DNA from: an uncultured Ruminococcus sp.
Lineage (GTDB): Bacteria > Bacillota > Clostridia > Oscillospirales > Ruminococcaceae
NCBI GenBank assembly: GCA_900315755.1
Contig: ONAI01000001.1
Span: 127,387-191,386, forward strand
Direction of reading: 5' to 3'
DNA: 64,000 nucleotides
Positions within the stretch are counted from its first letter, which is position 1; each line of letters begins with the position of its first letter. Both the position numbers and the translations under genes were made by a program. The notes under the pieces are model-generated. The model was not told where the DNA came from and did not search any database. It saw only the letters and a program-made list of their open reading frames with translations. Below, piece by piece: positions 6,913 through 25,960 of the stretch.

Positions 6913-7707
6913 CTATCGTCCACCATAAAGTTTATAAAGTATATAGTTCTTGACTCTGCACGGAAGCAATCTGTCTGCAAGAACAGCCGCCTTATAGCCT
7001 ACCCCCATCGTATTGAGCGGGGCAGGATGCTTCCTTTTCACGATGTGCATTATATAGGAGGCAGCCGCCTGAGCTGTATAGCCTTCGCACTCATCTTTCT
7101 CCATTTTCCGGACAGAGCGGCTTATACATCCGCCGTATTCAGTATCGCCTTTTTCGGACTTCTTCCTCGCATTGGTAAAGCCTGTGCATATATCTCCGAA
7201 CATTATCGCACATACTGTTATGCCAAACTGCCGGACCTCATTTGCAAGTCCGCAGGTATAGGAATTTATGCCAGCCTTGCTTACCGAATACCATACCTGA
7301 AAAGGCAGAGGCATGACCGCAGCTACGCTGCTTATATTTATTATCCTTCCACGCCTCTGCGCCTTCATATACGGCAGCACCGCCTTGCAGACATTAGCCG
7401 TACCAATGAGATTGACATTTATCTGCCTTACCGCGTCCTCATGAGCAGTGAATTCGCAGGCGCCTGATATACCGTAACCGGCACAGTTTATCAGCAGGTC
7501 TATCCTTTGTTCACATCTGAATATACTGCGGACTGCTGCCGTTACAGCTTCTTCGTCTGCTACGTCAACAGTACAGTGCCTTATACCATGATGACTTTTT
7601 CCTGTTCTGGAAAATTCATATACCCGAAAGCCTTTTCTGCACAGCTTCAATGCAGCAGCTCTTCCGATACCGCTGCTGCCGCCTGTTATTATCGCCGTCC
7701 TTCCCAT
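6913..7707 (-). CDS. Short-chain dehydrogenase/reductase, last gene of the peptide natural-product locus
   Basis: The 264-residue protein is a classical SDR: nucleotide-binding TGGSSGIG at the N-terminus, NCAGYG, catalytic Ser in INISSVA, and YSVSK as the Tyr-Lys pair. Overall likeness is to ketoreductases of the 3-ketosphinganine or 3-oxoacyl type, NADPH-dependent and cytoplasmic. The start is taken at MGRTAIITGG because its ATG lies one base after the stop of the alpha-oxoamine synthase gene (TGATATG), a coupled arrangement. An alpha-oxoamine synthase followed by an SDR is the order of sphinganine-type synthesis, so reduction of the amino ketone made by its neighbour is the likely job (inference). 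Confidence 0.85.
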   Translation of the reverse strand: MGRTAIITGGSSGIGRAAALKLCRKGFRVYEFSRTGKSHHGIRHCTVDVADEEAVTAAVRSIFRCEQRIDLLINCAGYGISGACEFTAHEDAVRQINVNLIGTANVCKAVLPYMKAQRRGRIINISSVAAVMPLPFQVWYSVSKAGINSYTCGLANEVRQFGITVCAIMFGDICTGFTNARKKSEKGDTEYGGCISRSVRKMEKDECEGYTAQAAASYIMHIVKRKHPAPLNTMGVGYKAAVLADRLLPCRVKNYILYKLYGGR

Positions 7708-7708
7708 A

Positions 7709-8905
7709 TCAGCGCAGTGATAACAGGACATCAAGAGTTCTGTCAAGATCCTCACGGGTATGGCTGGCAGATATGAAGAACCTTATCCTTGCCTCGTTTT
7801 CCTTTACGGCAGGATACACTATCGGAAGTGCATTTATGCCTTCTCTGAAAAGGTCATTGGACATATCTATCGCCCTGTGAGAATCTCCCAGTATGATCGG
7901 TATTATAGGAGTACCTTCACTGAGACCTGTATCATAGCCCATAAGGCTGAGCTTATTCAGAAAATACTGCGAATTACTGTGAAGTTTTTCTATGCGGAAA
8001 GACTCCTCTTCAAACAGCTCTATTGCCCGGCAGGCAGCAGCTGTGTTAGCCGGTGTCATACCGCAGCTGAATACAAATCCGGGAGAATTATAGCGCAGAT
8101 ATTTTATGAATCTGCTGCTGCCGGCGATATATCCTCCGCAGCTCGCAGCAGATTTGCTGAGTGTACCCATAAGGATGTCCACATCTGCCGGATCAGCCTC
8201 ATAGTAACTCGTGATACCACGTCCGCAGTCTCCGATAGTACCAAAAGAATGAGCCTCGTCTATCATGAGCATAGCGCCATATTCCTTTTTCAGCCTGATA
8301 AGCTCCGGCAGGTCGCATATATCGCCGTCCATAGAGTATATACCCTCTGCGATTATCAGAACTCTTCTGAATTTCTCGCGGAATTTCTTCAATGTTCTTT
8401 CGAGATGCTCCATGTCATTATGCCGGAAGTGCATACGCTTTGCGTGTGAGAGTATACACCCCTGAACACTGCTGTTATGTGCAAGGCTGTCATGAAGGAT
8501 CAGATCCTGCGGACCTACAATATTTCCGATAATGTTGACGTTGGTGCTGTGACCTCCGACGAATACTATCGCATCCTCTGTGCCAAGAAATCCGGCTATC
8601 TGCCTTTCAAGCCTTTCGTGGAGTTCTATCTCTCCGCTAAGCAGACGGCTTCCTGAAACAGAAGTGCCATAGTGTTCAACTGCTTCCATGACGAATTCAT
8701 TTATCCTCTTGTCGCCGTTAAGACCAAGATAATTGTAGGTGGAATAGTTTATCTTTTCCTCACCCTCTATTATCATCCTTCCGCCGGCAATACCCTCATT
8801 CTTACGGAAATAGGCTATGCCGTACTTAACTGAGTCGTAGTATTTTTCAAATGCTGCTATCTCGGGGAAATCGTCAATAACACATTCTCTTGTTCTAGTG
8901 ACCAT
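7709..8905 (-). CDS. PLP-dependent alpha-oxoamine synthase (AONS/SPT/CqsA family)
   Basis: This 398-residue enzyme belongs to the family that condenses an acyl thioester with an amino acid, with loss of CO2, to an alpha-amino ketone. Visible are NYLGLNG near residue 57, GSRLLSG, the PLP-contacting IDEAHSFGTIG, and the cofactor lysine in MGTLSKSAASCGGY (about residue 237). Members include BioF, Kbl, serine palmitoyltransferase and the autoinducer synthase CqsA. Substrate cannot be read from sequence. No other biotin genes are near, so BioF is unlikely. Its partner genes (SDR, acyl-carrier-like protein) suggest a fatty amino ketone or amino alcohol made for the peptide product or as a separate signal. 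AGGAG precedes the ATG. Confidence 0.85.
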   Translation of the reverse strand: MVTRTRECVIDDFPEIAAFEKYYDSVKYGIAYFRKNEGIAGGRMIIEGEEKINYSTYNYLGLNGDKRINEFVMEAVEHYGTSVSGSRLLSGEIELHERLERQIAGFLGTEDAIVFVGGHSTNVNIIGNIVGPQDLILHDSLAHNSSVQGCILSHAKRMHFRHNDMEHLERTLKKFREKFRRVLIIAEGIYSMDGDICDLPELIRLKKEYGAMLMIDEAHSFGTIGDCGRGITSYYEADPADVDILMGTLSKSAASCGGYIAGSSRFIKYLRYNSPGFVFSCGMTPANTAAACRAIELFEEESFRIEKLHSNSQYFLNKLSLMGYDTGLSEGTPIIPIILGDSHRAIDMSNDLFREGINALPIVYPAVKENEARIRFFISASHTREDLDRTLDVLLSLR

Positions 8906-8960
8906 TCAATCTCAACTCCTGAACATCTTATATTAAGCCTTCCTGCGTATACGCTCCATA

Positions 8961-10784
8961 TCACACATAATACTGTGCCTGAGCATTCCAGAGAGAAAAA
9001 TATTTGCTGCCCTTCTCTGAAAGAAGCTTTTCGTGACTGCCTCGCTGAACGATGGATCCGTTATCGAATACAAGTATCTCATCGCAGAATTTACAGGAAG
9101 AAAGTCTGTGGGATACAAAAAATACAGTTTTGTCGCTGTTCATCTCATTTACCCGTGAATATATCTCCTCTTCCGATACAGGATCGAGAGAAGCGGTAGG
9201 TTCATCGAGTATAACGTAAGGTGAATCCTTGTAAACAGCTCTCGCAAGAGCTATCTTCTGTGCCTCACCGCCTGAGATCTCCTCGCCGGTCTCATCGTAT
9301 TCACGGTAGATCACAGTATCTGTTCCCTTTGCCATTTTTGAAAGTCTCTCGCTGAAACCAGCCTTATCAAGAGCAGAATAGACTCTGTCTCTGTCCTGAT
9401 CCATATCACAGGCTACATTCTCCCCGACAGATGCCGATACAAGTGAAAAATCCTGAAACACCACCGAGAACTTGTCATAATATCGTGTCGGAGAGACAGT
9501 GCTTACATCTGTGCCGTTCATAGAAACTACACCTGATGTAGGCTTATATAGTCCGCACAGCAGCTTTACAAACGTAGTCTTTCCACTGCCGTTTTCGCCG
9601 ACAATAGCGTACTTTTTGCCCTCTTTCAATTCAAGATCGACGTTCTTTAGTATATCTCTGTCGGAAGTGCGGTATCTGTAATACACATTGCTGAACCTGA
9701 TAGTTCCCTCAGAAACATCCCCGTCTTTTGATACGGCAGTTTCTGCATGGCTGCAATACGTATAAATGTCCTCAATGTAAGCAGCATTGTTAAGAAGTAT
9801 GCCAAAGTATATGAACATATTCGTGGCATTGGACACGAGCTGCTCAACTGCTCCGACATACTGTATGAACTTGCCCACGCTGAAAGCCTTGTAGTATACC
9901 TTTATACCAACGAACATATACAGAAAGAATCTCATAACGCCCATTGCCGCCATGTTTATAGTGCCGTATCTGCGGTGGATCCTATAAATATTCCCGATAT
10001 ACTTAGGATCGCGGGTATACTTATATATCTCGTCCATTACTACGTTATCCCACTTGTATATACGTCCGTCCATTGCCCATAGGTTATTACTGAGGTTAGA
10101 ACGTATATAGTGCAGCAGTCTATTGGACTCCGGCAAAGTGCGCCATTCTTCGTTTTCTTTTCTGAATTTCACACTGCTGCTCCAAACAGAAATGCTTATA
10201 CAAACCAGCATAAAAACTATAAACGCTGCTGTAAATGTTCCGGAATTCACCAGATCTGCGCTCTGTGAACCGGATTCCGCCATATTCACAAACAATCCGA
10301 CCGTCATAAATATGGATATTGTTATCGAGATGAAAGCAGTAAGCAGGAATGAATAGCAGGTTATCTGAGTATCAAGTCCGGCACCTGTCGCGTTCTGATT
10401 TGAGCGTATGCGGTTCTTGAGCAGCTGAAGCTCAGGATCCTCAAGATCGGCATATGGCATACGGTTGTTTATGTCACAGTAGAACTGCTCCTGCTTCAGC
10501 TGCCACTGAGACTGGTGAATCTCGGATCTTGCTCCTGCGATCTCCTTTATACCGTTTAACAGCATCTCTGCTGCAAGCAGCACTATAACGTACCTCATAA
10601 CGACACCGAAAGATGTTCCGGTGCTGATCCTGTCAACAATGGCAGAGGAAAAATATATCAGTACAAAAGGCATTACAGCACTGACTGCCGACTTGAGAGA
10701 AATATAGAACATATACTTCCCGTCTATACGGAATATCAGGCGGTATCCCCACAGTATCTTTTTTATCTTTTCTGAAAGCTTCAT
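8961..10784 (-). CDS. ABC exporter, fused permease and ATPase (half-transporter 1)
   Basis: About 607 residues. An N-terminal six-helix ABC membrane domain (about 15-330) is followed by an ATPase with Walker A GENGSGKTT, signature SGGEAQK, Walker B YVILDEPTASLDP and the H-loop VSHRLS. All catalytic elements are intact. The ATG at 10784 is chosen over an upstream GTG because GAGG lies six bases before it. It begins 15 bp after the second exporter gene, and both are of the heterodimer-forming lipid/peptide exporter type. No N-terminal C39 peptidase is present, so leader removal must be done by another protein, such as the subtilase of this locus. Confidence 0.85.
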   Translation of the reverse strand: MKLSEKIKKILWGYRLIFRIDGKYMFYISLKSAVSAVMPFVLIYFSSAIVDRISTGTSFGVVMRYVIVLLAAEMLLNGIKEIAGARSEIHQSQWQLKQEQFYCDINNRMPYADLEDPELQLLKNRIRSNQNATGAGLDTQITCYSFLLTAFISITISIFMTVGLFVNMAESGSQSADLVNSGTFTAAFIVFMLVCISISVWSSSVKFRKENEEWRTLPESNRLLHYIRSNLSNNLWAMDGRIYKWDNVVMDEIYKYTRDPKYIGNIYRIHRRYGTINMAAMGVMRFFLYMFVGIKVYYKAFSVGKFIQYVGAVEQLVSNATNMFIYFGILLNNAAYIEDIYTYCSHAETAVSKDGDVSEGTIRFSNVYYRYRTSDRDILKNVDLELKEGKKYAIVGENGSGKTTFVKLLCGLYKPTSGVVSMNGTDVSTVSPTRYYDKFSVVFQDFSLVSASVGENVACDMDQDRDRVYSALDKAGFSERLSKMAKGTDTVIYREYDETGEEISGGEAQKIALARAVYKDSPYVILDEPTASLDPVSEEEIYSRVNEMNSDKTVFFVSHRLSSCKFCDEILVFDNGSIVQRGSHEKLLSEKGSKYFSLWNAQAQYYV

Positions 10785-10799
10785 AGTTTTCCTCACATA

Positions 10800-12605
10800 T
10801 CACATATTCACAGCAGCTTCTTTGTAATACTTCGCCTGTATGTCAAACAGCTCCGCATACTTTCCGCGTTTACTGAGCAGCTCGCTGTGTGTACCGCTCT
10901 CAACAACTTTTCCGTTTTCGAGATAGAATATCTTATCACAGAACCTTGTCGAAGCAAGTCTGTGCGAGATGAAGAATGAGATCTTGTTATTTGAATACCT
11001 GCTGTAACTCTGATACATCTCCTCTTCAGCAAGAGGATCAAGCGCAGCAGTCGGTTCATCAAGTACCAGCACAGGACCATTCTTGTACATTGCTCTTGCA
11101 AGTGCAAGCTTCTGCATTTCACCGCCTGAAAGATCAACAGCCTTGCTGAAAACGTTCGGAACAAGATAAGTCTCTATGCCGTCTGAAAGTCCTTTTACTT
11201 TTTTGTTAAGACCGGATATTTCAAGACATCTGTCGAGCTTATCCCTTGAAAACTCCGAGTATACCACGTTTTCCCTTATCGTGAATGGCATGACTGATAT
11301 ACGCTGGAATACCGACGAAAAGCCATTGTAGTATTCATCACGGGCATACTCTGTCTGCTCATTGCCGTTCAGCTTTATACTGCCGCCGGTTGGATGATAC
11401 ATACCGCAGAGCAGCTTTATCAGTGTAGTTTTGCCGGCACCGTTAAGTCCTACGATAGCGACCTTTTCGCCGGAATGTATCTCAAAGCTGACATTGCTTA
11501 TCGTATCACCTTCAGCACCGGGGTATCTGAATGAAACATTATCGAACACAACGCTCTCGGCTTCATCACCTTTCATAGCGAGTTCGCCGCATATCCTGTT
11601 CTCAGTTCCCATAAATGCACGAAAATCCTTTGCGGAATAGTTTCCCTTAGTAAGCTGCTCAAAGCTCATCACTATCTCTCCGAGTATGTCCACAAATCCG
11701 GAGATGACAGAGAAATAAAGCACGAACTCAGCCGGAGTTATCTCGTTTGCTGCAACCTTTGAGATAAGGTAAACATAGGCAAAACCGTCTCTGGCAACTA
11801 TTACCAGCAGATCCGCTGCGGATGAAGCTATCTTTCTTAATGCAAGCTTGCTGAACAGCTTGTGATGCTCCTTCATCAGCAAGGAAAGGCTCTTCTTCAG
11901 CCATGTATTCAGTCCATAGAGCCTTATGTCCTTTCCGGTCTTGTAGTTTTCAGATAAACCTGCAAAATACTTCATCTTGCGTGAGATCCTGATACGCTCA
12001 TCTCTTGTTTTGTATTCGTAATTATCTATGTAAAGCATGGTGAGATACTCAAGCCCTGCTGTAAGTGCAAGTGCTATGAGCACAAGAGGATTGAAGACAA
12101 CTATGATAAAACAGAAAACCGCGAACTTCAGTATGCCCGTTATGAGCCGGCAGAAATTCTCCGGCATATGTACAAAGGGCGTGTGGTTGTTCATTACCGC
12201 TTCCTCAGCCTTATCGTATATGACCTTTGTCTGCGGATTTTCTATCATATCATAATCGACTTTCATTATCTTTGAATATATCTTTTCATGATAGTGAAGC
12301 ACCAGTTTGTGTTCTGCCACATATTTTCTTGCCTCTATCCTTGTGCTGATGATACCGGCAAGCGTTTTTACGAAAATGAGTCCGCCTATCGTAAGAATAA
12401 GCTCTCTCAGTCCGAAGCGGCTGTCAGACAGGATATATATTATACACGGAGTTATGACCATATCAAGCACCGGTATTATAAGCTGCATAAGTACAGAAAA
12501 AATATTGCACCAGAAAAGCGGACGGTCCACTCTCCTGACTTCGCCAAATACATATGCTATATTGCTGAAAAAGCCATTTTTACCTGTTTTTACTCTTTCC
12601 TTCAT
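10800..12605 (-). CDS. ABC exporter, fused permease and ATPase (half-transporter 2)
   Basis: 601 residues with the same layout as its neighbour: ABC membrane domain (about 25-320) and ATPase with Walker A GLNGAGKTT, signature LSGGEMQK, Walker B VLVLDEPTAALDP and ISHRLA. AAGGG precedes the ATG. The pair probably forms a heterodimer exporting the mature peptides or a lipid-like product across the membrane. Both ATP sites look competent, unlike many heterodimeric exporters with one degenerate site. Confidence 0.85.
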   Translation of the reverse strand: MKERVKTGKNGFFSNIAYVFGEVRRVDRPLFWCNIFSVLMQLIIPVLDMVITPCIIYILSDSRFGLRELILTIGGLIFVKTLAGIISTRIEARKYVAEHKLVLHYHEKIYSKIMKVDYDMIENPQTKVIYDKAEEAVMNNHTPFVHMPENFCRLITGILKFAVFCFIIVVFNPLVLIALALTAGLEYLTMLYIDNYEYKTRDERIRISRKMKYFAGLSENYKTGKDIRLYGLNTWLKKSLSLLMKEHHKLFSKLALRKIASSAADLLVIVARDGFAYVYLISKVAANEITPAEFVLYFSVISGFVDILGEIVMSFEQLTKGNYSAKDFRAFMGTENRICGELAMKGDEAESVVFDNVSFRYPGAEGDTISNVSFEIHSGEKVAIVGLNGAGKTTLIKLLCGMYHPTGGSIKLNGNEQTEYARDEYYNGFSSVFQRISVMPFTIRENVVYSEFSRDKLDRCLEISGLNKKVKGLSDGIETYLVPNVFSKAVDLSGGEMQKLALARAMYKNGPVLVLDEPTAALDPLAEEEMYQSYSRYSNNKISFFISHRLASTRFCDKIFYLENGKVVESGTHSELLSKRGKYAELFDIQAKYYKEAAVNM

Positions 12606-12655
12606 AATGTTAATCCCTTACTCCGCTAAGATCCCGTATATTAAAGGAACGTTCC

Positions 12656-12698
12656 GCATAGGGCGCTTTCAGTGAAAAAACGCTTCCGTGCCCTATGC
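12656..12698 (-). other. Intercistronic hairpin before the exporter genes
   Basis: GCATAGGGC (12656-12664) pairs with GCCCTATGC (12690-12698), and a GGAACGTTCC palindrome abuts it. No T-run follows on the reverse strand, so it is more likely an mRNA-processing or stabilising stem than a full terminator. Confidence 0.4.
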
Positions 12699-12725
12699 AG
12701 ATTGATCCTGAGATCCTGCTGATAC

Positions 12726-13196
12726 TTAATTCTCTCTGATATACTGATTCCCTATGTTATCAGTACTCTTGAAACCGCTTTTGCGGAATGCTGCTTTGTC
12801 ACTTATATAGTAGACAAAGTTTTCATTCTGCGCTATAATGTAGTAATCGCATGACAGATATTTTTCTTCGTAGTATTTAAAAGCCTTTAGCGCATCTTCC
12901 TTGCTGAGATTGTAGCATATGTCTATACAGCTGCTGCCATTCTCGGCATAAACTCTTTCGCCGGTGACATCAAGACCGTATATATCATTGAACTGACTTA
13001 TAGTATATCCTTCGTCTGTGAGATTACTGATAAGTTCGTCCTTTGAGGGGACTACACTTACTGCTCCGTTTTTTACTATATCTACTTTTTCTGATTTGTT
13101 GTGTCTGAAAAACATAACTGCTCCTATCGCTGCGATCACTATTATAAATGAGATGGCTGCTGTTCTCAGCTTGACAGCCTTATTTACACTTGTCAT
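12726..13196 (-). CDS. Membrane-anchored protein of the peptide locus, unknown function
   Basis: The 156-residue product has one N-terminal membrane helix (about residues 12-30, AAISFIIVIAAIGAVMFF) and a soluble domain of about 120 residues predicted outside the cell. Its ATG lies inside the last codons of the final precursor gene (overlap 17 bases), so translation is probably coupled. It sits between the precursor array and the exporters, where immunity proteins or exporter accessories are commonly found. I do not recognise a family; an immunity role is inference from position. Confidence 0.7.
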   Translation of the reverse strand: MTSVNKAVKLRTAAISFIIVIAAIGAVMFFRHNKSEKVDIVKNGAVSVVPSKDELISNLTDEGYTISQFNDIYGLDVTGERVYAENGSSCIDICYNLSKEDALKAFKYYEEKYLSCDYYIIAQNENFVYYISDKAAFRKSGFKSTDNIGNQYIREN

Positions 13197-13326
13197 TAAT
13201 AACCGGACAGCTGTTGACCTTTACACAGCTTCCATCGCAGTTTGTATCCTCTTTATAGAGAACTGCTGCTGTTGCTGTTTTATTCTCATTTACGCTGTTC
13301 TTGATGAATTTGTATTTGCTGCTCAC
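13180..13326 (-). CDS. Cys-rich precursor peptide 10
   Basis: A 48-residue peptide starting at GTG (13324-13326), chosen because AGGAGG lies eight bases upstream and the result aligns with the other precursors. Leader part: YKFIKNSVNENKTATAAVLYKED. Core: TNCDGSC followed by VNSCPVINDKC, with four cysteines. It belongs to the same core subgroup as peptides 6 and 9 (xNxC spacing, then N-[IS]-C and a final Cys). The gene follows peptide 9 and overlaps the start of the membrane-anchored protein gene. Confidence 0.8.
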   Translation of the reverse strand: MSSKYKFIKNSVNENKTATAAVLYKEDTNCDGSCVKVNSCPVINDKCK

Positions 13327-13339
13327 GATCCATTCCTCC

Positions 13340-13462
13340 TTAGCTGCATCCGTTATTTGTATACGGGCATATATTAACGACCTTGCATGGGCAATTTGTA
13401 TTCTCATCATACAAACAGAAGTCTGTGAGAGCTTCACTTATGATCCTTTTCTTGAAAATCAT
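13340..13462 (-). CDS. Cys-rich precursor peptide 9
   Basis: A 40-residue peptide with ATG at 13460-13462 and AGAGG seven bases upstream. The leader is shortened (KKRIISEALTDFCLYDEN) but keeps the conserved LY-x-EN, and the core TNCPCKVVNICPYTNNGC contains four cysteines, with a further Cys in the leader. It is close to peptides 6 and 10. The gene ends 13 bases before the start of peptide 10. Confidence 0.8.
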   Translation of the reverse strand: MIFKKRIISEALTDFCLYDENTNCPCKVVNICPYTNNGCS

Positions 13463-13480
13463 ATCTTTGCCTCTTTTCTA

Positions 13481-13666
13481 TTACGGACAATAGCCGGAAT
13501 TCTTACAAGGTGTATTCGTAGCATTGCAATAGCCGGAATTGTTGCAGTTAGAATTAGAACTTGTGCAATCCCCGCCATTTCTGCATGAGTCATTCTCGGC
13601 ATAAACGAAATAACTCAATAAGGATTCATTATCCTTTCTGACACCTTTGAAATTATACTTTTTCAT
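13481..13666 (-). CDS. Cys-rich precursor peptide 8, with three C-x-N-x-G-x-C modules
   Basis: This is the longest precursor (61 residues). GAGG precedes the ATG. Leader: MKKYNFKGVRKDNESLLSYFVYAEN. The core contains CRNGGDC, CNNSGYC and CKNSGYC, three copies of the C-x-N-x-G-x-C module found once in peptides 1-4, separated by Ser/Thr/Asn-rich linkers, plus two more cysteines. Seven to eight potential crosslink sites make it the most elaborate substrate of the set. Confidence 0.85.
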   Translation of the reverse strand: MKKYNFKGVRKDNESLLSYFVYAENDSCRNGGDCTSSNSNCNNSGYCNATNTPCKNSGYCP

Positions 13667-13684
13667 ATTATTACCTCATTTCCG

Positions 13685-13849
13685 TCAGCATGGCTGATTA
13701 ACGGTATGTGTATCACAATGATCGTTGATAGGAGCAGAAGGATATGCTGAACAACCTTTGTTCTTCTTTACATCCACATCCTCTGAGGCGTATAATGTTA
13801 CATTCTTGATCTCAGCTTCCGAGATCTGCTTCTTGGTAAATTTATACAT
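13685..13849 (-). CDS. Cys-rich precursor peptide 7
   Basis: A 54-residue peptide; ATG at 13847-13849 with AAGGAG nine bases upstream. Leader YKFTKKQISEAEIKNVTLYASED is clearly homologous to the others. The core has three cysteines in a divergent arrangement (KGCSAYPSAP, NDHC, NQPC-stop), ending on Cys. The C-x-N-x-G-x-C module is absent, so this is the most diverged intact core. Confidence 0.8.
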   Translation of the reverse strand: MYKFTKKQISEAEIKNVTLYASEDVDVKKNKGCSAYPSAPINDHCDTHTVNQPC

Positions 13850-13870
13850 GATACTATACTCCTTTATCCA

Positions 13871-14008
13871 TCAATCATCACAAGGCTTGTTTGTTGTAAC
13901 AGTGCAAATATTCTTTGCTACTGTACACGAACAATCAGTGTTTTCCTTGTATAATGAAACATTGCGGATGTCTTCGGATACGTTTTTCTTAGAGAATACC
14001 TTTTCCAT
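13871..14008 (-). CDS. Cys-rich precursor peptide 6
   Basis: A 45-residue peptide. The start at 14006-14008 is preceded by GGAAGGAG with an 8-base spacer, better supported than a longer in-frame ATG further upstream. Leader: VFSKKNVSEDIRNVSLYKEN. Core: TDCSCTVAKNICTVTTNKPC, four cysteines, same subgroup as peptides 9 and 10. Confidence 0.85.
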   Translation of the reverse strand: MEKVFSKKNVSEDIRNVSLYKENTDCSCTVAKNICTVTTNKPCDD

Positions 14009-14106
14009 TGTATTAACTCCTTCCGTATGTGTTTTATATGGAATAAAGGTGCGCCAAGAACGATAAAACATCATCTCCGCCCTGCTGTTAACGAACAGCG
14101 TGAGCT

Positions 14107-14175
14107 TTATCTGTTATACAGAACTCCGCCGGGTGTATCAGCGTCAACAGCTTGCTTTGTGAGATCTTATTTCAT
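14107..14175 (-). pseudogene. Broken precursor peptide (remnant 5)
   Basis: Between peptides 4 and 6 the reverse strand reads Met-Lys-stop, then DLTKQAVDADTPGGVLYNR-stop in the same frame. This matches the leader M-K-Y-x-FTKK-x-V-DE-x-NV-x-LY with a TAA in place of the Tyr codon and a second stop where the core should begin. AAGGTG precedes the ATG. It is a decayed member of the array with the core lost. Confidence 0.75.
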
Positions 14176-14221
14176 CCAGCGCACCTTTTTCTGAATTATT
14201 ATAACCTTATCGTTTACGGGA

Positions 14222-14347
14222 TCAAACACCGCATACGCCGTCTACATCACCGCAGATACCCTGATTCTTACAAGATCCGCCGTTTTCAGTATAGAGAGCA
14301 ACGTTCATTGCGTTCTCATCAACAGCCTTCTTTGTGAATTCGTACAT
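14222..14347 (-). CDS. Cys-rich precursor peptide 4
   Basis: A 41-residue peptide; start at 14345-14347 behind GGAGGAGG. Leader: MYEFTKKAVDENAMNVALYTEN. Core: CKNQGICGDVDGVCGV, identical to that of peptides 1 and 3, with three cysteines (C-x5-C-x6-C). Only the residues just before the core differ (GGS). The high identity of the repeated genes implies recent tandem duplication. Confidence 0.9.
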   Translation of the reverse strand: MYEFTKKAVDENAMNVALYTENGGSCKNQGICGDVDGVCGV

Positions 14348-14394
14348 TATGCGCACCTCCTCCCGTTTGGAAATCTGGTCATCCGGCTGTGCGA

Positions 14395-14520
14395 TCAAAC
14401 ACCGCATACGCCGTCTACATCGCCGCAGATACCCTGATTCTTGCAGTTACCGCTGTTCTCACCGTAAAGTGCAACGTTCTCTGCATTCTCATCAATGATC
14501 TTCTTTGTGAATTCGTACAT
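14395..14520 (-). CDS. Cys-rich precursor peptide 3
   Basis: A 41-residue peptide; start at 14518-14520 with AAAGGAGG upstream. Leader: MYEFTKKIIDENAENVALYGEN. Core identical to peptides 1 and 4 after a variable SGN. The 3' end and the downstream gap are nearly identical to those of peptide 4. Confidence 0.9.
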   Translation of the reverse strand: MYEFTKKIIDENAENVALYGENSGNCKNQGICGDVDGVCGV

Positions 14521-14581
14521 TATTTTCGCCTCCTTTTCATAAAATATTTCTTATAAAATTTGCAGAATATCAGTTAAACGT

Positions 14582-14749
14582 TCAGATCTTGCTTGTAGGT
14601 ATCGGAACACCCTCAGGATAGCAGATACCCTCATTTAAGCAAGCTCCGCCGTTCATTGGAGCAGGACAAAGAAGATCCTTGCCCTCCTTGTAAAGTGTTG
14701 CCTCTGTGAGGTTTTCACTTACATTCTTCTTTATGAGATCATATCTCAT
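14582..14749 (-). CDS. Cys-rich precursor peptide 2
   Basis: A 55-residue peptide; start at 14747-14749 with AAAGGCGG upstream. Leader: MRYDLIKKNVSENLTEATLYKEG. The core has four cysteines (LLCPAP, GGACLNEGIC, YPEG) and contains CLNEGIC, a version of the shared module, with a Pro-rich tail ending in TSKI. Confidence 0.85.
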   Translation of the reverse strand: MRYDLIKKNVSENLTEATLYKEGKDLLCPAPMNGGACLNEGICYPEGVPIPTSKI

Positions 14750-14798
14750 AGTAATACCGCCTTTCATATAATCAATGTAACTGTTGACGGTCAATTGA

Positions 14799-14933
14799 TC
14801 AAACGCCGCATACGCCGTCTACGTCACCGCAGATACCCTGGTTTTTGCAGTCTCCGCCGTTCTTGTTCTCGCCGTAAAGAGCAACATTCATTGCGTTCTC
14901 CTCAACGGACTTCTTTGTGAACTCGTATTTCAT
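14799..14933 (-). CDS. Cys-rich precursor peptide 1 (first in the array)
   Basis: A 44-residue peptide; start at 14931-14933 with GAGGAGG eight bases upstream. Leader: MKYEFTKKSVEENAMNVALYGEN. Spacer KNGGD, then the core CKNQGICGDVDGVCGV shared with peptides 3 and 4. It is the promoter-proximal precursor. The gene for the unknown 182-residue protein lies 200 bp upstream. Confidence 0.9.
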   Translation of the reverse strand: MKYEFTKKSVEENAMNVALYGENKNGGDCKNQGICGDVDGVCGV

Positions 14934-14987
14934 ACTTACACCTCCTCTGTTTTTTGTGGAAATACATAATCAGCCGGATATTTCTAT

Positions 14988-15001
14988 ACTGTCCGGACAG
15001 T
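14988..15001. promoter_or_regulatory. 14-bp perfect palindrome upstream of the precursor array
   Basis: ACTGTCCGGACAGT is self-complementary and sits about 55 bp upstream of the first precursor start. It could be an operator or a small hairpin; no good -35/-10 pair accompanies it. Confidence 0.3.
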
Positions 15002-15065
15002 TTACCCAGTGGGAATAAGTATCCAGCCTCTCTGCCTAAGCAGATAATTATGCATATGCCTTTAT

Positions 15066-15103
15066 TTTTATAAAGAACCGTTACCTGAACGTTTCTTTAT
15101 AAG
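15066..15103 (-). other. Long intercistronic hairpin before the precursor genes
   Basis: TTATAAAGAAACGTT pairs with AACGGTTCTTTATAA (one mismatch) around CAGGT on the reverse strand. No T-run follows. In RiPP operons such stems often end part of the transcription or protect the abundant downstream precursor mRNA; that role is inferred here. Confidence 0.45.
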
Positions 15104-15133
15104 CATTGGTTTGCTCCGGCAGCACTATACTGC

Positions 15134-15682
15134 TCAGCCTCCGTATACAGAAACCGCCATTATGTACATCTCAATATTGTCCGGAAGAACTATCTCTTCT
15201 ATATCAAAGCCTTCGAGAGGTATCTCACATTTGTAAAGGCTTACGTCTAAGTACCCATTTGCTGTCGTTTTTACAGCCTCGCTGCAAAGCTCGTTCATCT
15301 CGCTCGAATACAGCGTTTCTATGGACTGATTGATCCCGTAGAAGAACAGCTGCTCACTGTGCATACTGCCGTCTTTTCCGACAACTGTAAGCCTGTCGCC
15401 GTAATTGCCGAATTCATTGAAGCCGAGAAATGCTACCTTCTTTACATTGTTAAGTCCTATTTCTATATGCTGATACGCACATATGAGATTATCATTTTCT
15501 TTTGCCGTGCCGCAGAACTCAAACGGTACTCCGCCGCACTCCCTGTTCAGCTTTTCGCCGGAAAGTGATCCATCATTTATACAAATGCCGGATACTCCGT
15601 GTTCCTCACCGTCCTCCGGGAGAGAATCAAAGAGTATCTTATGATCGAGCAGCCTGTCAATGTTGATGCTATGCCATTTCAA
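15134..15682 (-). CDS. Unknown 182-residue protein of the peptide locus, beta-rich
   Basis: The frame begins with TTG (15680-15682), overlapping the end of the upstream gene, with GGGGTGG six bases before it. The sequence shows alternating short strands (KKVAFLGFNEFG, DRLTVVGKDG, YLDVSLYKCEIPL, EEIVLPDNIEMYIMAVSVYGG), suggesting a beta-sandwich as in carbohydrate-binding or jelly-roll domains. No signal peptide, membrane helix or catalytic motif is seen. Translationally coupled to the BtrH-like gene, it may act with it. Family not recognised. Confidence 0.7.
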   Translation of the reverse strand: MKWHSINIDRLLDHKILFDSLPEDGEEHGVSGICINDGSLSGEKLNRECGGVPFEFCGTAKENDNLICAYQHIEIGLNNVKKVAFLGFNEFGNYGDRLTVVGKDGSMHSEQLFFYGINQSIETLYSSEMNELCSEAVKTTANGYLDVSLYKCEIPLEGFDIEEIVLPDNIEMYIMAVSVYGG

Positions 15683-16643: not shown

Positions 16644-16660
16644 CAGTCTTATCCTTCGGC

Positions 16661-16882
16661 TCAGAGTGCATAGAGCTTTTCTATGACTGCCTTTACCTTT
16701 TCATTAGGGATGCCTACCATTGCGCCCATATTATCCTCGATGACCTCGCGCAGATTGTAATCAAGTCCCTCCTGAAATCTGGGGTGCATCAATGCAAGCG
16801 GGAATGCCTTCTTGATGACTGCTTTTCCCTCAGGATCGCTGATAACCTCTCTTAATGTGCTTGTTTCCGTAAACTTTGCCAT
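16661..16882 (-). CDS. Small helical protein of the peptide locus
   Basis: A 73-residue protein; ATG at 16880-16882 with AGGAAG eight bases upstream (an in-frame GTG nine bases earlier is less likely). The sequence TSTLREVISDPEGKAVIKKAFP..HPRFQEGLDYNLREV resembles the small helical domain, sometimes found at the end of glycosidases and in DUF1858-like proteins, that packs as a helical bundle. Function here is unknown. It starts six bases before the stop of the ABC gene. Confidence 0.7.
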   Translation of the reverse strand: MAKFTETSTLREVISDPEGKAVIKKAFPLALMHPRFQEGLDYNLREVIEDNMGAMVGIPNEKVKAVIEKLYAL

Positions 16883-16887
16883 TATTT

Positions 16888-19416
16888 TCACTTCCTTATT
16901 ATAGTTATAGGATCTACCTTTGTTAGCTTTCTTACTGATATAAGTACCGACACGATGACCACCAGCAAACTTGCAAGTATTATAGCCGCAAATGGTCTCC
17001 AGTCCGGATTTAGTATAGCAAGCTCTTTCAGACTTGTATGCTGGAAATAGCTCGTCATATTCTTGGAAAGTATGCTGTTTCCGATCTTTGCAAGCAGAAC
17101 GAACAGCAGTGATGTCGCTGCGGGGATGATGACTGCATACTTGAACAGTCCGGACATATACAGCTTTGTTATGTAATCCCTGTCAATACCCATTGCCCGC
17201 ATTATGCCAATATTCCGCTTCTGATCGTTGATTATGCCGCTGTAACAGGACGATATGAGAACAAGTTCGAGTACTATTATCACTACCACAAGTATCCACG
17301 AAAAGCGGTTGAATATCGCTACAACTCCGCGTATATCATATATCACGAATGAGTAGGGAAGTGAATAGAAATAATCTTCTTTGCCCATATTCCTGAGAAG
17401 CGCTGTCGTATCGCTGCGGTCTCTGTTATTATCGAATACGATACCGTAGAGATAGCACTGTGAGGCTGAGAATTCCTCGAAATACTCGTCAGAAACTACA
17501 AGAGCCATATCGCTTCTGATCTCATCATCAAATCCGGAAGGCATATCAAATACTCCGGCTATTCTTAGCTCTCCGCTCTCAAACAGTATATCAGGAGCCA
17601 TTCCCTCACCAAGAGGCATTGACACTGTGTTCGGCATAGTGTAACTCTGCGAAGGAGAGAACTCTGTCCTGAAATATGAGCGGAAAAAGTTTGCTGATAC
17701 ATATATATCGTTCTTGGCGGAAATTTCCGGAATGCCCAGCTTTTCGCCGTATACTGAGCTTTTTAATATAGACGCGTTATTGAATATCATCTTGTCAGTA
17801 TACACTGAGCCGAGGAAATCATCGCTTACAAATATCGCCATATATATGCCGCTGTTCACAAGATACCGGAAAGTCTCGGTGCGCTTATCGTTGTTGAGAC
17901 TTACCTTGTCCATATACACCATGTCTTTGTATTTTTCAGCGAAGCCGGTGTCTATTATGCCTGTAATGCGGTAAGACGATACACACATATCAATGTCGCT
18001 ATTCAAAAGAATTCTTTCAGGAGCATTTCTGAATTCAGCAATTCCTTCCGTTGAATCTATCTTCGCAGCCCATTCCTTACCGAACAGAGCTTCAAGAGTA
18101 GCTCCGTCAAGTCTTTTAAGACCGGCTCTTACCTTTTCATCATCGCTGAGTTCCTGTGCATTTTCAAGTCCGAGCCTTCTGTAAACATTATCCGGTGCAA
18201 GAGTATTGATAACGTAAAGCATATAGTCAGTTACGCATATCTCCTTAGGAGCGGAAGGATATGTTCCCCAGCCAAGAGAAGCACCGTACTTCGCAAGCCC
18301 TGCTTCCGAACCTTTTATTGCTATATTCACTTCTGAAGGCAGGAAATCATTCCCGCTCGAACCATTATAGAAGCTGAGTCCCATGACCATATAGCTTTCG
18401 TCATAGTCCTTGATGTCGTTTTCTGAAACGAAGTCCTCTATCTCGCTCTTTGTTATCATACGTGATGTACAAACGAAGTTTTTCGACTTATCATCGACAT
18501 AGCCTTTGTTCAGAAATATCGAGTTTACATTCTCAGAATCGAACAGCTTTGCCGACATCTTTTCAAAATTGAAATTGTAAAATGACACGCTTATTCCGAC
18601 AATAGATAACAGTATCACCGAAATACATACACTCACCAGCAGTCTTTTCCGCTTTGAACGGACAAGCTCACGCGAGATCTTCATAGCATCACATATCTGG
18701 ATATGTCCGGCTTTTTTGAGATCCACCTCACATCCGACAGGATCTTCCCTTACCTCTGAAGCGCTGTCCTCAGCGACCTTGCCGTCAGATATGGTTATGA
18801 TACGATCCGAATACCGCACACTGCTATCAACATCATGGGTAACTACAAGCACAAGGCGTTCATCAGCTATGCTTTTCAGCGCCTCAAATACTATTTCGCT
18901 GTTTCCGGAATCGAGATTTCCAGTAGGCTCATCGGCAATTATAATGCGGCTGTCTTTAACCAGAGCACGGGCTATTGCTGCTCTTTGCTGCTGTCCGCCG
19001 CTAAGTTCCGAAGCTTTTTTGTCTGCATTATCATATATGTCAAGCAGCCTGAGTATCCTTTCAGCTTCCTTTTCCTTCTGCTCACTTGCCTCAATGCCAA
19101 GCATTATATTCTCTTTTACTGTAAGCTCTCCGATGAGGCTGTGATCCTGAAAAATAAATCCGAGATTGTTCCTGCGGTAGGCATTGAGCGCATCGGCATC
19201 AAGCTCAGTTATAACGGTATCACCGTCTGATACAGTGCCGGATGTCGGACTGTCAAGTCCGGCGATTATGTTCAGCAGCGTAGATTTACCGCTTCCACTC
19301 TTGCCGGTAATGAATACCATTCCGCTTTTCGGGAACTCAAGATCTATATTTTTCAGAACCTGTTTTTCATTTTCCCTGCCCTCATTGTATGTTTTGCAAA
19401 TGTCATTCAGTCGCAT
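16888..19416 (-). CDS. MacB/FtsX-type ABC transporter, fused ATPase-permease
   Basis: 842 residues. The ATPase comes first (1-225): Walker A TGKSGSGKST, signature ELSGGQQQR, Walker B IIIADEPTGNLDSG. One membrane helix follows (about 265-285), then an extracytoplasmic domain of about 430 residues, then three C-terminal helices with the FtsX signature RNIGIMRAMGIDRDYI. Such proteins are mechanotransmitters or bacteriocin immunity/efflux pumps rather than type I exporters. In this operon it may give self-protection or release a processed peptide from the surface (inference). Only 17 bp separate it from the subtilase-fusion gene. Confidence 0.85.
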   Translation of the reverse strand: MRLNDICKTYNEGRENEKQVLKNIDLEFPKSGMVFITGKSGSGKSTLLNIIAGLDSPTSGTVSDGDTVITELDADALNAYRRNNLGFIFQDHSLIGELTVKENIMLGIEASEQKEKEAERILRLLDIYDNADKKASELSGGQQQRAAIARALVKDSRIIIADEPTGNLDSGNSEIVFEALKSIADERLVLVVTHDVDSSVRYSDRIITISDGKVAEDSASEVREDPVGCEVDLKKAGHIQICDAMKISRELVRSKRKRLLVSVCISVILLSIVGISVSFYNFNFEKMSAKLFDSENVNSIFLNKGYVDDKSKNFVCTSRMITKSEIEDFVSENDIKDYDESYMVMGLSFYNGSSGNDFLPSEVNIAIKGSEAGLAKYGASLGWGTYPSAPKEICVTDYMLYVINTLAPDNVYRRLGLENAQELSDDEKVRAGLKRLDGATLEALFGKEWAAKIDSTEGIAEFRNAPERILLNSDIDMCVSSYRITGIIDTGFAEKYKDMVYMDKVSLNNDKRTETFRYLVNSGIYMAIFVSDDFLGSVYTDKMIFNNASILKSSVYGEKLGIPEISAKNDIYVSANFFRSYFRTEFSPSQSYTMPNTVSMPLGEGMAPDILFESGELRIAGVFDMPSGFDDEIRSDMALVVSDEYFEEFSASQCYLYGIVFDNNRDRSDTTALLRNMGKEDYFYSLPYSFVIYDIRGVVAIFNRFSWILVVVIIVLELVLISSCYSGIINDQKRNIGIMRAMGIDRDYITKLYMSGLFKYAVIIPAATSLLFVLLAKIGNSILSKNMTSYFQHTSLKELAILNPDWRPFAAIILASLLVVIVSVLISVRKLTKVDPITIIRK

Positions 19417-19433
19417 ATAAAACCTCTTACAGC

Positions 19434-21194: not shown

Positions 21195-21200
21195 TTTTTA

Positions 21201-21485
21201 TCACACTCCGACAGTTTCCTTTTTTTCTAAAGAAGGGCTTATAACATCTGTCCAGAAACTATTGAGAGTGAGTTCTGAAAGCCTCTTTGAATACACATCG
21301 TCCGGCAGGTAAAATCCGTATTTTTCCTCAAGTTCAACATAAAACGAAACGAGAGACATTGAATCAAGAATTATCTCATCCATTCTCATATCCGGTGTAA
21401 GTTCTTCAACAAATATTCCGATACTGTCAAGTATCTCTCCTATCTGTTCTATATCCTTTTCAGGAATGATAATTTCGTATGCCAT
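21201..21485 (-). CDS. Acyl-carrier-like protein of the peptide locus
   Basis: 94 residues with an acyl carrier fold. The motif MDEIILDSMSLVSFYVELEEKYGFYLPDD contains Asp-Ser at the expected phosphopantetheine site (Ser about 42) and the recognisable helix II/III pattern. AGGAG precedes the ATG. It sits between the radical SAM gene (4-bp gap) and the subtilase fusion (6-bp gap). TIGRFAMs records 'ACP-related' proteins in comparable bacteriocin cassettes (recalled). It could carry the acyl group used by the alpha-oxoamine synthase or BtrH-like protein. Confidence 0.8.
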   Translation of the reverse strand: MAYEIIIPEKDIEQIGEILDSIGIFVEELTPDMRMDEIILDSMSLVSFYVELEEKYGFYLPDDVYSKRLSELTLNSFWTDVISPSLEKKETVGV

Positions 21486-21489
21486 AATC

Positions 21490-22812
21490 TTATACTCCTA
21501 TTTCTACAAACAGTTCAGGCTTAGACTTGTAAAGTCCCTGAAGCTCAGCATCTTTCTTCTTGCAGGCTACATTTTTATTTGCAGCAACTGTATTTACCGG
21601 ACAGAGTATTCCGTAACAGTTTGCATACAGTCCGCAGCCTTCGCACTTAGAATCCGGACGAGCCGGAGGATTTGCCGGATACTGCCATCTGTCATAATAC
21701 TTTTCATTCTTGTCAATCTCACCGTTTTCATCGAGTTCACCAAGAATGTTATACTCGGAATAAAGGTTGACCGTACATCTGAGCATCTTTCCAAGCGGAT
21801 CAATCGTATATGTACCCTTCTTGGCTGCATAGCATATGTTAAGATTCTCAAAGAACTGATACCTTCCTGTGATATTGAGAGTAGTATTGAGCGCTGTAAC
21901 TCTGTCGATGAATTCTTCCTCGATATTGATGAGGCTTCCTTCGATAGATCTTACTGTATCACCGCCCCAGTTTCCGACAGCCTTGAAGAGGAAGGAGAAT
22001 CTGTTGTCTCCGCCGAAATTCTGTTCAAGTTCAGCTACCTGAGCTTCAAGATCCTCAGCAGTTTCTTTAGTAAGATTGCTTCTGAGAAGTATACTGAAAA
22101 CAGGTGAAGGACATTTTGTCTTGATGTCGATGAGGTTCTTCATTATCACCTCATATGTAGGACCTCCGCCTGCAAGCGGACGGGTCTTGTTGTGGAACTG
22201 TGCACGTCCGTCAAGAGTTATCTGATAGCTTGTAACGTGATATTTTCTGAACAGCTTCATAAAAGTATCATAGTCAAGAAGATAACCGTTAGTCGTCATA
22301 CTTGCGGTATAGCTCTTCTTGTAGGCTCTTGCAAGCTTCATAAGGCGCTCACTGAGCTTTTCTATAACAGACATTGCAACGAGAGGCTCTCCGCCGAACC
22401 AGCTTACATGAAGTCCCTTTGAAGACGGAACAACAGTCTTTGCAAACTTAACAACTCTGTCTATGACCTCATCACTCATAACGCCGTTTACTCGTTCTTC
22501 ATAGCAGTAAGGACATCTGAAATTACACATAAGTGTAGGGAGTATGATAAACTCTACATATCCGCTGTCTATCGTCTCCATATACTTGATGAGTGCTTTT
22601 TTGTCCTCATCGTAGTCCGTTCCACAGACTATTCCCTTATCCTCAAGCTTTTCAACAACATCTTCCGGGATATTGCTGAAATTTCCACAGTCGAGATCTT
22701 CATAGAAGCTCTTGTTCATAATGGCAAAAGTGTTGCGCAAGGAATTGAATATGACCGTTTTTCCATCGCAGTCAACACAGTAATTGAATTTTGAGACTTT
22801 ATAATCTGACAA
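21490..22812 (-). CDS. Radical SAM/SPASM peptide maturase
   Basis: 440 residues from a TTG start with GGGGTG seven bases upstream. The 4Fe-4S/SAM motif is C96-x3-C100-x2-C103 (LMCNFRCPYCYEE). The C-terminal SPASM region has the Cys cluster C390-x2-C393-x5-C399-x4-C404 and C417. The N-terminal 80 residues (CDGKTVIFNSLRNTFAIMN) may be a leader-binding domain. SPASM enzymes of this group install thioether or C-C bonds on Cys-rich peptides (sactipeptide/ranthipeptide type), so the ten-member precursor array is the likely substrate. It is the first gene of the leftward operon, directly behind the regulated promoter at 22884-22949. Confidence 0.88.
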   Translation of the reverse strand: MSDYKVSKFNYCVDCDGKTVIFNSLRNTFAIMNKSFYEDLDCGNFSNIPEDVVEKLEDKGIVCGTDYDEDKKALIKYMETIDSGYVEFIILPTLMCNFRCPYCYEERVNGVMSDEVIDRVVKFAKTVVPSSKGLHVSWFGGEPLVAMSVIEKLSERLMKLARAYKKSYTASMTTNGYLLDYDTFMKLFRKYHVTSYQITLDGRAQFHNKTRPLAGGGPTYEVIMKNLIDIKTKCPSPVFSILLRSNLTKETAEDLEAQVAELEQNFGGDNRFSFLFKAVGNWGGDTVRSIEGSLINIEEEFIDRVTALNTTLNITGRYQFFENLNICYAAKKGTYTIDPLGKMLRCTVNLYSEYNILGELDENGEIDKNEKYYDRWQYPANPPARPDSKCEGCGLYANCYGILCPVNTVAANKNVACKKKDAELQGLYKSKPELFVEIGV

Positions 22813-25956: not shown

Positions 25957-25960
25957 TGCG

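Follow-up and report, generated by a model that had tools for sequence, protein, structure and literature searches.

What could be made by a gene cluster that combines a radical SAM peptide cassette with genes recalling bacterial sphingolipid synthesis, and do both sets serve one product? The question is raised by a locus of an uncultured Ruminococcus sp. (contig ONAI01000001.1), from which a stretch of 64,000 nucleotides, here called the window, was analysed. Our analysis points to a RiPP cluster under quorum control that is a divergent member of the SacP23 kind and carries an extra carrier-protein and lipid-amine branch, a reading to which we give close to even chances. Judged from its sequence, the cluster probably makes sulfur-bridged small peptides of the antibacterial type, and it seems equipped to link these to a fatty or amine group. 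If true, the product would be of an unusual type.

The cluster is intact and occupies the minus strand at 6913-22812, reading leftward from 22812 with mostly tight spacing (Table 1), just as the first-pass annotation had described. The open reading frames named there were checked against Pfam and NCBIfam profile cut-offs. Radical SAM, DUF1611, ABC, FtsX, aminotransferase-fold (oxoamine synthase) and SDR domains scored above the Pfam cut-offs. The subtilase half, the ACP and BtrH_N scored below the Pfam and NCBIfam cut-offs, so for these identities we rely on homologues, matching folds and the conservation of catalytic residues. No NCBIfam cut-off was reached by the radical SAM, ACP, subtilase-DUF1611, oxoamine synthase or SDR proteins. 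Conservation of the gene neighbourhood, a check suggested earlier, was found in the Ruminococcus flavefaciens MAG SIG534 (L032/G452), where a near-identical locus has the identical gene set and order. All 21 compared genes align without gaps, and dN/dS is 0.02-0.13 across all 12 larger genes (point estimates, based on few changes for the ACP and 76-aa genes). Based on this common order, the gapless alignments and the low dN/dS, the locus is beyond chance. A decaying locus or an assembly artefact, to which one precursor remnant and the MAG assembly might point, is contradicted by the full-length gapless orthologues, the low dN/dS and the second MAG, and is very improbable.

Table 1. Features of the cluster and of its flanks, with positions in the window.
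Feature	Position	Strand	Basis or remark
Hairpin between SDR and convergent McrC	6865..6888		10-bp stem
Short-chain reductase (SDR)	6913..7755	-	Ketosphinganine-reductase-like
Alpha-oxoamine synthase	7709..8905	-	3a2b/8guh 261.8 bits
ABC exporter 2	8961..10796	-	Best model MsbA, below cut-off
ABC exporter 1	10800..12605	-	Best model MsbA, below cut-off
156-aa protein	12726..13196	-	One hydrophobic segment (12-30); dN/dS 0.06
Precursor p9	13180..13326	-	GTG start
Precursor p8	13340..13462	-	
Precursor p7	13481..13666	-	6 Cys, CxNx[GS]xC-type repeats
Precursor p6	13685..13849	-	
Precursor p5	13871..14008	-	
Precursor remnant	14107..14175	-	Leader-like
Precursor p4	14222..14347	-	
Precursor p3	14395..14520	-	
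Precursor p2	14582..14749	-	
Precursor p1	14799..14933	-	SD, leader end NVALY, 3 Cys
182-aa protein, no family	15134..15682	-	dN/dS 0.13; no profile match
BtrH/CtaG/CcbD-like protein, 324 aa	15669..16643	-	BtrH_N; Foldseek
76-aa protein, no family	16661..16891	-	dN/dS 0.12; no profile match
ABC ATPase-FtsX permease fusion	16888..19416	-	PF00005, PF02687
Subtilase (S8)-DUF1611 fusion, 586 aa	19434..21194	-	Conserved residues; fold matches
Acyl carrier protein, 94 aa	21201..21485	-	DSM motif; ACP models <=27.3 bits
Radical SAM/SPASM peptide maturase, 440 aa	21490..22812	-	PF04055 60 bits; TIGR04334
Three GTTTACTAAA-type repeat pairs	22919..23502	-	23497/23476, 23356/23335, 22945/22924
13-codon ORF MWNDIMKAIGNLF	23203..23244	-	SD; conserved in SIG534 locus
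Divergent LytTR response regulator and GHKL histidine kinase (AgrA/AgrC type)	23710..25766	+	PF04397, PF00072, PF14501

By its sequence, the core of the cluster is a divergent relative of the published radical SAM/TIGR04066/TIGR04069/subtilase cassette. Adjacent radical SAM, ACP, S8 and DUF1611 parts, ABC proteins and short Cys-rich precursors are all present, as in TIGR04066-type cassettes. Among 53 models, Clo7bot TIGR04334 was the best for the maturase (170.6 bits, cut-off 600); the ranthipeptide maturase PapB (NF047865) and SacP23-type CcpM (TIGR04068) models gave 116.8 and 86.4 bits, under their cut-offs of 340 and 500. TIGR04066 (cut-off 200) scored 66.9 bits on the DUF1611 half and 70.4 bits on the homologue L034. 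The ACP-related model TIGR04069 (cut-off 70) had no match to the window ACP at E 0.1, and it matched the ACP of homologue L033 with 28.5 bits. Since the TIGR04334, TIGR04066 and TIGR04069 scores all lie below cut-off, we regard the cassette as a divergent relative of the Clo7bot and TIGR04066-TIGR04069 families. The likeness to Clo7bot drawn by the first-pass annotation is thus retained at this sub-threshold level. Its likeness to FibroRumin is not, as TIGR04136 gave 36.8 bits (cut-off 400) and ranked 23rd of the 53 models.

That such cassettes are known only from TIGRFAM models, as had also been stated, does not hold, because they are in print for Roseburia intestinalis and Paenibacillus polymyxa. 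The cluster of R. intestinalis L1-82 shares radical SAM (there TIGR04068), TIGR04066, TIGR04069, subtilase and ABC genes with the window; no precursor was found in it, and the window adds extra genes and nine precursors (PMC4573289). The SacP23 cluster of P. polymyxa #23 likewise has radical SAM, TIGR04066, TIGR04069, subtilase and ABC transporter genes with a Cys-rich precursor, all with counterparts in the window, including the TIGR04069-type ACP-related protein (PMC10731318). It differs in its TIGR04068-type radical SAM protein (the window's best model being TIGR04334), its separate subtilase and TIGR04066 genes, its one precursor as opposed to nine and, in its list of eight genes, the lack of the FtsX-ABC, BtrH-like, oxoamine synthase and SDR genes; its product structure was not solved (PMC10731318). 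These four genes and the two proteins of no known family were likewise not seen when 15 stretches of 11-20 kb with homologous cassettes were compared. No paper on a cluster with the same full gene content, which would have spoken against novelty, was found among the matches listed from open-licence PMC papers.

The precursor set consists of nine intact Cys-rich ORFs and a remnant. Ten members had been counted before; the tenth is the remnant, which runs into a stop at codon 3 and lacks a Cys core. A common leader was evident: eight of the nine precursors have LY directly ahead of the core, and five have NVxLY. This leader, the gene content, the conserved catalytic residues, the matching folds and the low dN/dS are what the sequences show; each chemical step below, the substrates and the use of both branches for one product are inferred. 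The radical SAM protein would read the leader and put thioether-type cross-links on the Cys-rich cores. An N-terminal extension precedes its radical SAM domain, and Cys 96/100/103 as well as Cys 327, 346, 390, 393, 399, 404 and 417 are invariant in 12/12 aligned sequences (window included).

Removal of the leader would fall to the subtilase half of the fusion, in which D9/H43/S189 and N127 are invariant, as is the P-loop GTxxxQGK of the DUF1611 half (14/14 aligned, window included). The subtilase half scored 73.1 bits with the QhpE model (cut-off 165) and the DUF1611 half 44.9 bits with PF07755 (cut-off 25). The predicted structure of the fusion (pLDDT 81.6, pTM 0.61) matched DUF1611 structures, the N-acetyltransferase DgcN (7xrj, E 5.1e-11) and subtilisins including PagA; the protein therefore has both the domain and the fold of the DgcN type. 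The S8 fold and triad are shared with the maturation subtilases QhpE and PagA, which, unlike the window protein, are not fused to DUF1611. We suggest that the DgcN-like half would then acylate the amine thus exposed, the ACP serving either as donor or as a partner. A DgcN-like fold is not proof of acyl transfer, and on this modelled structure the acyltransferase role is put forward as a proposal. It is rather unlikely that the DUF1611 half is instead a nucleotide-dependent enzyme, a protease regulator or an immunity protein. No activity is named for the closest folds (2g0t/2obn), the invariant P-loop would suit such a function, and the SacP23 authors guessed immunity for TIGR04066 and a modification factor for TIGR04069 (PMC10731318). 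However, of the DUF1611 proteins among the 50 matches listed only DgcN has a named activity, fusion to a leader protease would be odd for an immunity protein, and the N-terminus of antibacterial SacP23 was blocked to Edman degradation (PMC10731318).

The DgcN-like fold of the DUF1611 half, new here, would explain this blocked N-terminus, for which the SacP23 authors offered other causes; for their product of m/z 3404 they did not find or report an acyl group, which speaks against this explanation (PMC10731318). Together with the protease fusion, the fold evidence gives TIGR04066 and TIGR04069 proteins testable roles as acyltransferase and acyl carrier. The Ser of the ACP's DSM motif, likely the phosphopantetheine serine, is kept in 6/6 homologues (phmmer set, read by eye). 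PP-binding scored 19.8 bits (cut-off 20.8), and the search for an ACP gave none for 8 of the 15 homologous cassettes.

The BtrH-like protein is likely a carrier-to-amine acyltransferase, as judged from its model. BtrH_N (PF14399) gave 18.8 bits, below the gathering cut-off of 29.7, and homologue L102 passes with 31.9 bits. Across its five models pLDDT was 50 to 81 (best 81.1), and Foldseek matched it to AziU2-U3, CtaG and CcbD with E 2.8e-8 to 2.3e-4 (10-14% identity and TM 0.46-0.57 in the 19 best rows). Cys20, His124 and Glu142 are likely catalytic, Glu142 being the presumed third residue; C20 and H124 are invariant in 8/8 aligned sequences, and in a second alignment the Cys is found in 10/10 and the His in 9/10. 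The window protein thus has the fold and the conserved Cys and His of the CtaG, CcbD and AziU2-U3 type. CcbD was solved together with a carrier domain (PDB titles), and PKS/NRPS genes are fused to or near the BtrH-like relatives in 4/4 loci examined with Pfam (10 fetched). CcbD, AziU2-U3 and BtrH (butirosin) serve non-ribosomal or aminoglycoside pathways. CtaG, which takes its acyl group from a carrier, serves the non-ribosomal closthioamide pathway, in contrast to the peptide cluster here (PMC6772006). In our scheme the enzyme would link a carrier-bound acyl group through an amide bond to an amine, which would be a long-chain base or the peptide.

The long-chain base would come from the oxoamine synthase and SDR, which may build a long-chain amino alcohol from acyl-ACP and an amino acid. 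The closest solved structures of the synthase are serine palmitoyltransferases (3a2b/8guh), and the best SDR model is the 3-ketodihydrosphingosine reductase KdsR (NF049977, 220 bits, cut-off 400), by about 41 bits. Bacterial SPTs are fed by specialised ACPs (PMC9386255), and in the AcpR/AasR and SgaAB systems an oxoamine synthase works with a carrier or PKS, as here (PMC9386255, PMC12134224). The KdsR-like reductase adds to this likeness, whereas the window synthase sits in a Ruminococcus RiPP operon. Its top match outside the genus (394 genomes of the order) is itself part of a fusion protein with AMP-ligase and PP-binding (ACP) domains, and an SDR (204.7 bits) comes next.

It is quite unlikely that what the carrier and the BtrH-like enzyme attach is an amino acid or a short acyl group, with the synthase and SDR making a small beta-hydroxy-amino unit. 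Butirosin is a precedent for such an addition (as in closthioamide). The bioF (360.1 bits) and gly_Cac_T models score about equal to SPT (SPT-CFB 348.5 bits, cut-off 640; bioF also under cut-off), and a proposed role of CtaG is to transfer hydroxybenzoate from CtaH (PMC6772006). The SPT structures and the KdsR lead argue against a short unit, as does the lack of an adenylating enzyme in the cluster; the 11 AMP-binding matches lie on other contigs of the genome. The cluster has no acyl-ACP ligase, a point against our main scheme, and no acyl-ACP synthetase or ceramide synthase was recognised in it either.

The lipid branch may also be separate, since an orphan synthase (72% identical) occurs without a cassette in genome G450 and the lipid and BtrH-like genes were not seen in any of the 15 cassette stretches. 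Two pathways on one transcript, a plain radical SAM peptide and an independent sphingoid-type lipid linked by promoter or chance, are possible but on the unlikely side. The 55-bp gap 5' of the synthase is wider than most large-gene gaps, and cassette and synthase lie on different contigs in G273, G147 and G111. Against this, the genes share one strand, the listed terminator-like sites include none between 8905 and 8961, their order is repeated in the second genome, the synthase is rare in the genus (2/60 sampled genomes), and such synthases can need acyl-ACP, for which the operon has an ACP.

Should the lipid branch feed the peptide, an anaerobic rumen commensal would have a new way of making lipidated ribosomal peptides. 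Lipolanthines, goadvionins, lipoavitides, selidamides and nostolysamides are ribosomal peptides joined to acyl groups by GNAT acyltransferases on lanthipeptide or proteusin scaffolds, in contrast to the DUF1611 domain, BtrH/CtaG-type enzyme and radical SAM peptide considered here (PMC9505594, PMC13060382). In its most specific form our proposal is a doubtful one: a cross-linked peptide amide-joined to a sphingoid-like amino alcohol or fatty acyl group by a carrier-dependent CtaG/CcbD-type enzyme recruited from non-ribosomal chemistry, with the whole TIGR04066 class, SacP23 included, capping the subtilase-freed N-terminus by means of a DUF1611 acyltransferase and ACP, here as one fused protein.

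The ABC proteins would export the product and protect the cell, and export or self-protection is the predicted role of the FtsX fusion. Beyond the SDR, the hairpin is a terminator for the plus strand and has no T-run on the minus strand. Upstream, a GHKL kinase, a LytTR regulator and paired repeats make up an Agr-type two-component system, and the AgrC/AgrA-type pair would turn the operon on. An AgrB processing gene had no match in the same genome (92% complete). The GTTTACTAAA-type repeats, 21 bp start to start in each pair, are likely LytTR sites, which come as pairs with such spacing. The 13-codon ORF MWNDIMKAIGNLF is a candidate signal or leader peptide and lies within a 155-nt run (23348-23194) identical in the SIG534 locus, a run length reached in 0/5000 uniform permutations.

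The window is part of contig C80 of a 2.45-Mb MAG, and our analysis confirmed the cluster noticed in the first-pass annotation. Its genes are intact, all 12 larger genes and the nine precursors align without gaps to a second copy of the locus in R. flavefaciens MAG SIG534 (rSAM identity 99%), and dN/dS between the two is 0.02-0.13 across the 12 larger genes. Precursor values, calculated with p2 left out, were 0.28 (p4), 0.49 (p5) and 0.87 (p6), with few changes behind each. The DUF1611 part was present in two of 125 genus genomes (E 1e-10), the window's own and G453; G453 and SIG534 were counted as one, the contig number and position of the match being identical. Leftward from 22812 the order is rSAM, ACP (after a 4-bp gap), subtilase-DUF1611 fusion, ABC-FtsX, a 76-aa protein, the BtrH-like protein and a 182-aa protein, followed beyond a 200-bp gap by the precursor array (nine plus a remnant), a 156-aa protein that has a single hydrophobic segment, two ABC exporters, an oxoamine synthase and an SDR. 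Past the SDR there is a hairpin, whose T-run serves the convergent McrC strand and not the operon. An Rfam scan of 6500-26100 found tRNA as the sole family. A plasmid-borne locus is unsupported, as tblastn of the subtilase-DUF1611 and BtrH-like proteins against PLSDB gave no match for either. Of the 318 positions in the Pfam model, the neighboring McrC matches just 3-212, and at 267 aa its counterpart in the second genome is no longer; the C-terminal part thus seems to be absent in both.

Coordinates of features in the window and in other contigs and genomes
Feature	Location	Positions	Strand	Remarks
McrB-like AAA protein and McrC	window	4269-6845	+	
Hairpin past the SDR	window	6865-6888		T-run on plus strand only
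Precursor remnant	window	14107-14175	-	stop at codon 3
GTTTACTAAA-type repeats	window	22919-23502		three pairs, 21 bp apart within each
13-codon ORF with SD	window	23203-23244	-	just after second repeat pair, in longest conserved intergenic block
Second rSAM relative (L002)	G000 (genome of the window), C123	1041-2240		27% identical; 5.7-kb contig
Ligase-carrier-synthase fusion, then SDR (L099)	G154, contig 68	5128-9238		5′ end cut by contig edge
Orphan oxoamine synthase (L052)	G450, contig 14	20791-21996		no SDR or cassette nearby

In this cluster a known kind of cassette appears in a new form, and its parts can be given specific, testable roles. The earlier interpretation was partly supported: the core belongs to a known cassette kind and the extra parts make it a variant, while the proposed likeness to FibroRumin cassettes was rejected on model score. 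With the DUF1611 half as query, 17 of 394 order genomes, own included, had matches, and 15 strong matching places were fetched from 12 other genomes. An rSAM gene lies beside the fusion in 13 of these 15 stretches (a partial frame in L042), and none was found within the fetched stretches L035 and L041. ABC exporters occur near the fusion inside all 15, with that of L047 about 4 kb upstream; the overlap rule of this gene survey could hide a gene overlapping another. The S8 triad is kept in 14/14 aligned fusions (short frames L041 and L042 left out) and the cluster Cys residues in 12/12 aligned rSAMs (L035, L041, L042 and L046 left out, the frame being absent, partial or over-long). ACP was recognised by phmmer in six stretches and a seventh candidate, with Glu-Ser, by motif (L045); the other eight gave none by either method. 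The genome of the window also carries a second rSAM relative on a separate contig.

The view that such cassettes are uncharacterised in print is ruled out by papers on the SacP23 and Roseburia clusters. According to the available text of PMC10731318, the SacP23 cluster of Paenibacillus comprises an rSAM (TIGR04068), TIGR04066, TIGR04069, a separate subtilase and an ABC transporter, and the whole cluster cloned in B. subtilis yielded an antibacterial peptide of m/z 3404, below the predicted size. This peptide elutes in a 60-70% acetonitrile gradient and its N-terminus is blocked to Edman degradation, for which modification or circularisation in general was offered; TIGR04066 was guessed to confer immunity (PMC10731318). 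The Roseburia cluster shares all five of these parts, its precursor not found (PMC4573289, available text). In contrast to the separate subtilase gene of SacP23, that of the window is fused to DUF1611. The late elution and blocked N-terminus, unexplained in the available text of PMC10731318, would fit N-acylation. Because of these two papers, we lean slightly more than before towards a quorum-regulated RiPP cluster of the SacP23 kind with a carrier-protein/lipid-amine branch, the best explanation, which we put just short of an even chance. The rival in which the DUF1611 half is not an acyltransferase lost a little ground and appears quite unlikely.

Because searching the PDB by sequence yielded no useful hit for the subtilase-DUF1611, BtrH-like or 76-aa protein, comparison was made by fold instead. 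The fusion was modelled from 14 sequences (mean pLDDT 81.6, pTM 0.61) and matched, in order, two DUF1611 structures without a named activity, DgcN (7xrj), an N-acetyltransferase by its PDB title, and subtilisins. Since the DUF1611 half matches DgcN and stands beside a subtilisin half, the model suggests cutting followed by acylation within one protein: the subtilase half would cut and the DUF1611 half would acylate. Such an order of steps would agree with the blocked N-terminus of SacP23. The available text of PMC12363236 names dgcN and not DUF1611.

A divergent LytTR regulator and a GHKL kinase adjoin the operon, and related HK/RR genes lie near two of the 15 homologous cassettes, L034 and L046, the L046 kinase being a putative assignment. 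All three exact copies of the 11-mer TGTTTACTAAA in the window lie in the intergenic region with the paired repeats; with two mismatches allowed, its count equals chance (24 vs 22.6 expected). The two genomes share, without a difference, a 155-nt run that contains the 13-codon ORF; 0/5000 uniform permutations gave a run of that length, and the first 23 nt of the ORF were found in the same two of 125 genomes as the DUF1611 part. Its product is possibly a leaderless linear inducer, or quorum peptide; alternatively, the ORF may serve as a translated leader, or induction may come from the mature RiPP. Neither L034 nor L046 has a 13-codon ORF like that of the window or such 21-bp repeats, and L046 has one unrelated pair with 20-bp spacing. 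AgrB gave no match in the genome of the window, where the LytTR-type pairs stand beside the short ORF.

Precursor-like ORFs (basic start, Cys-rich end), chosen by eye, occur in 12 of the 15 loci; [VIL]x[LI]Y before the core is clear in seven (L033, L035, L036, L037, L039, L040, L043) and looser or altered in the other five. The form [VIL]x[LI][YF] is present in 10 of 14 small ORFs, a filtered set that is descriptive and not an independent control. LY precedes the core in eight of the nine window precursors (VY in p7), and five have NVxLY. Cores of p1-p4 and p7 are of the type CxNx[GS]xC, those of p5, p8 and p9 start with CxC or CxxxC followed by NxC, and p6 fits neither. No NCBIfam model scored over cut-off against the window precursors; p5 reached 15.2 bits with AC3_0185 (E 0.016, below cut-off). 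When aligned, the remnant's counterpart in the second genome reads open, likewise without a Cys core.

The BtrH-like protein falls below the Pfam cut-off; homologues were found in 0/393 other order genomes (E 1e-3) and 9/390 other class genomes (E 0.01). Ten loci were fetched from eight of these nine, L108 giving no match on rescan, and four were examined with Pfam. The BtrH-like gene adjoins an NRPS in L104 and lies about 4.5 kb from a condensation-domain protein in L102. In L100 and L107 the domain is part of a fusion, joined close to the end of a hybrid PKS-NRPS and of a ketosynthase protein respectively; these are apparent carrier-acting domains in Clostridia. The model built from eight sequences (one of five, pLDDT 50-81) matched the folds of AziU2-U3, CtaG and CcbD. 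Cys20 and His124 are invariant in 8/8 sequences, the near-identical one of the second genome among them; another alignment, of 10 sequences, places the His of L106 one position away.

Serine palmitoyltransferases are nearest to the oxoamine synthase among solved structures, and KdsR is the best model for the SDR. Both proteins score under model cut-offs, so any assignment of acyl length or amino acid to the synthase would be tentative. Matches to it occur in 72/394 order genomes, own included (E 1e-60), the best other match in this sample being L099, where one chain comprises AMP-binding, PP-binding and oxoamine synthase domains and an SDR resembling that of the window comes after it. This fusion ties such synthases to carrier-bound acyl groups. 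The available texts report that, for bacterial SPTs, a dedicated acyl-ACP can be the favored substrate (PMC9386255) and that sphingolipids are made by a PKS-linked oxoamine synthase (PMC12134224). In the window, 55 bp separate the synthase from the second ABC exporter and the SDR, intact in the second genome, overlaps it by 47 bp. That the pair has no linkage to the peptide is favored by a lone synthase copy in G450, 72% identical to the window's, and by three genomes with cassette and synthase on different contigs; we consider this reading doubtful. L099 could itself be a compact pathway to long-chain amino alcohols; it is not the closest in the order, as G450, of the same genus as the window, is closer. 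By eye, the gene before the G450 orphan resembles one for a UTP-glucose uridylyltransferase.
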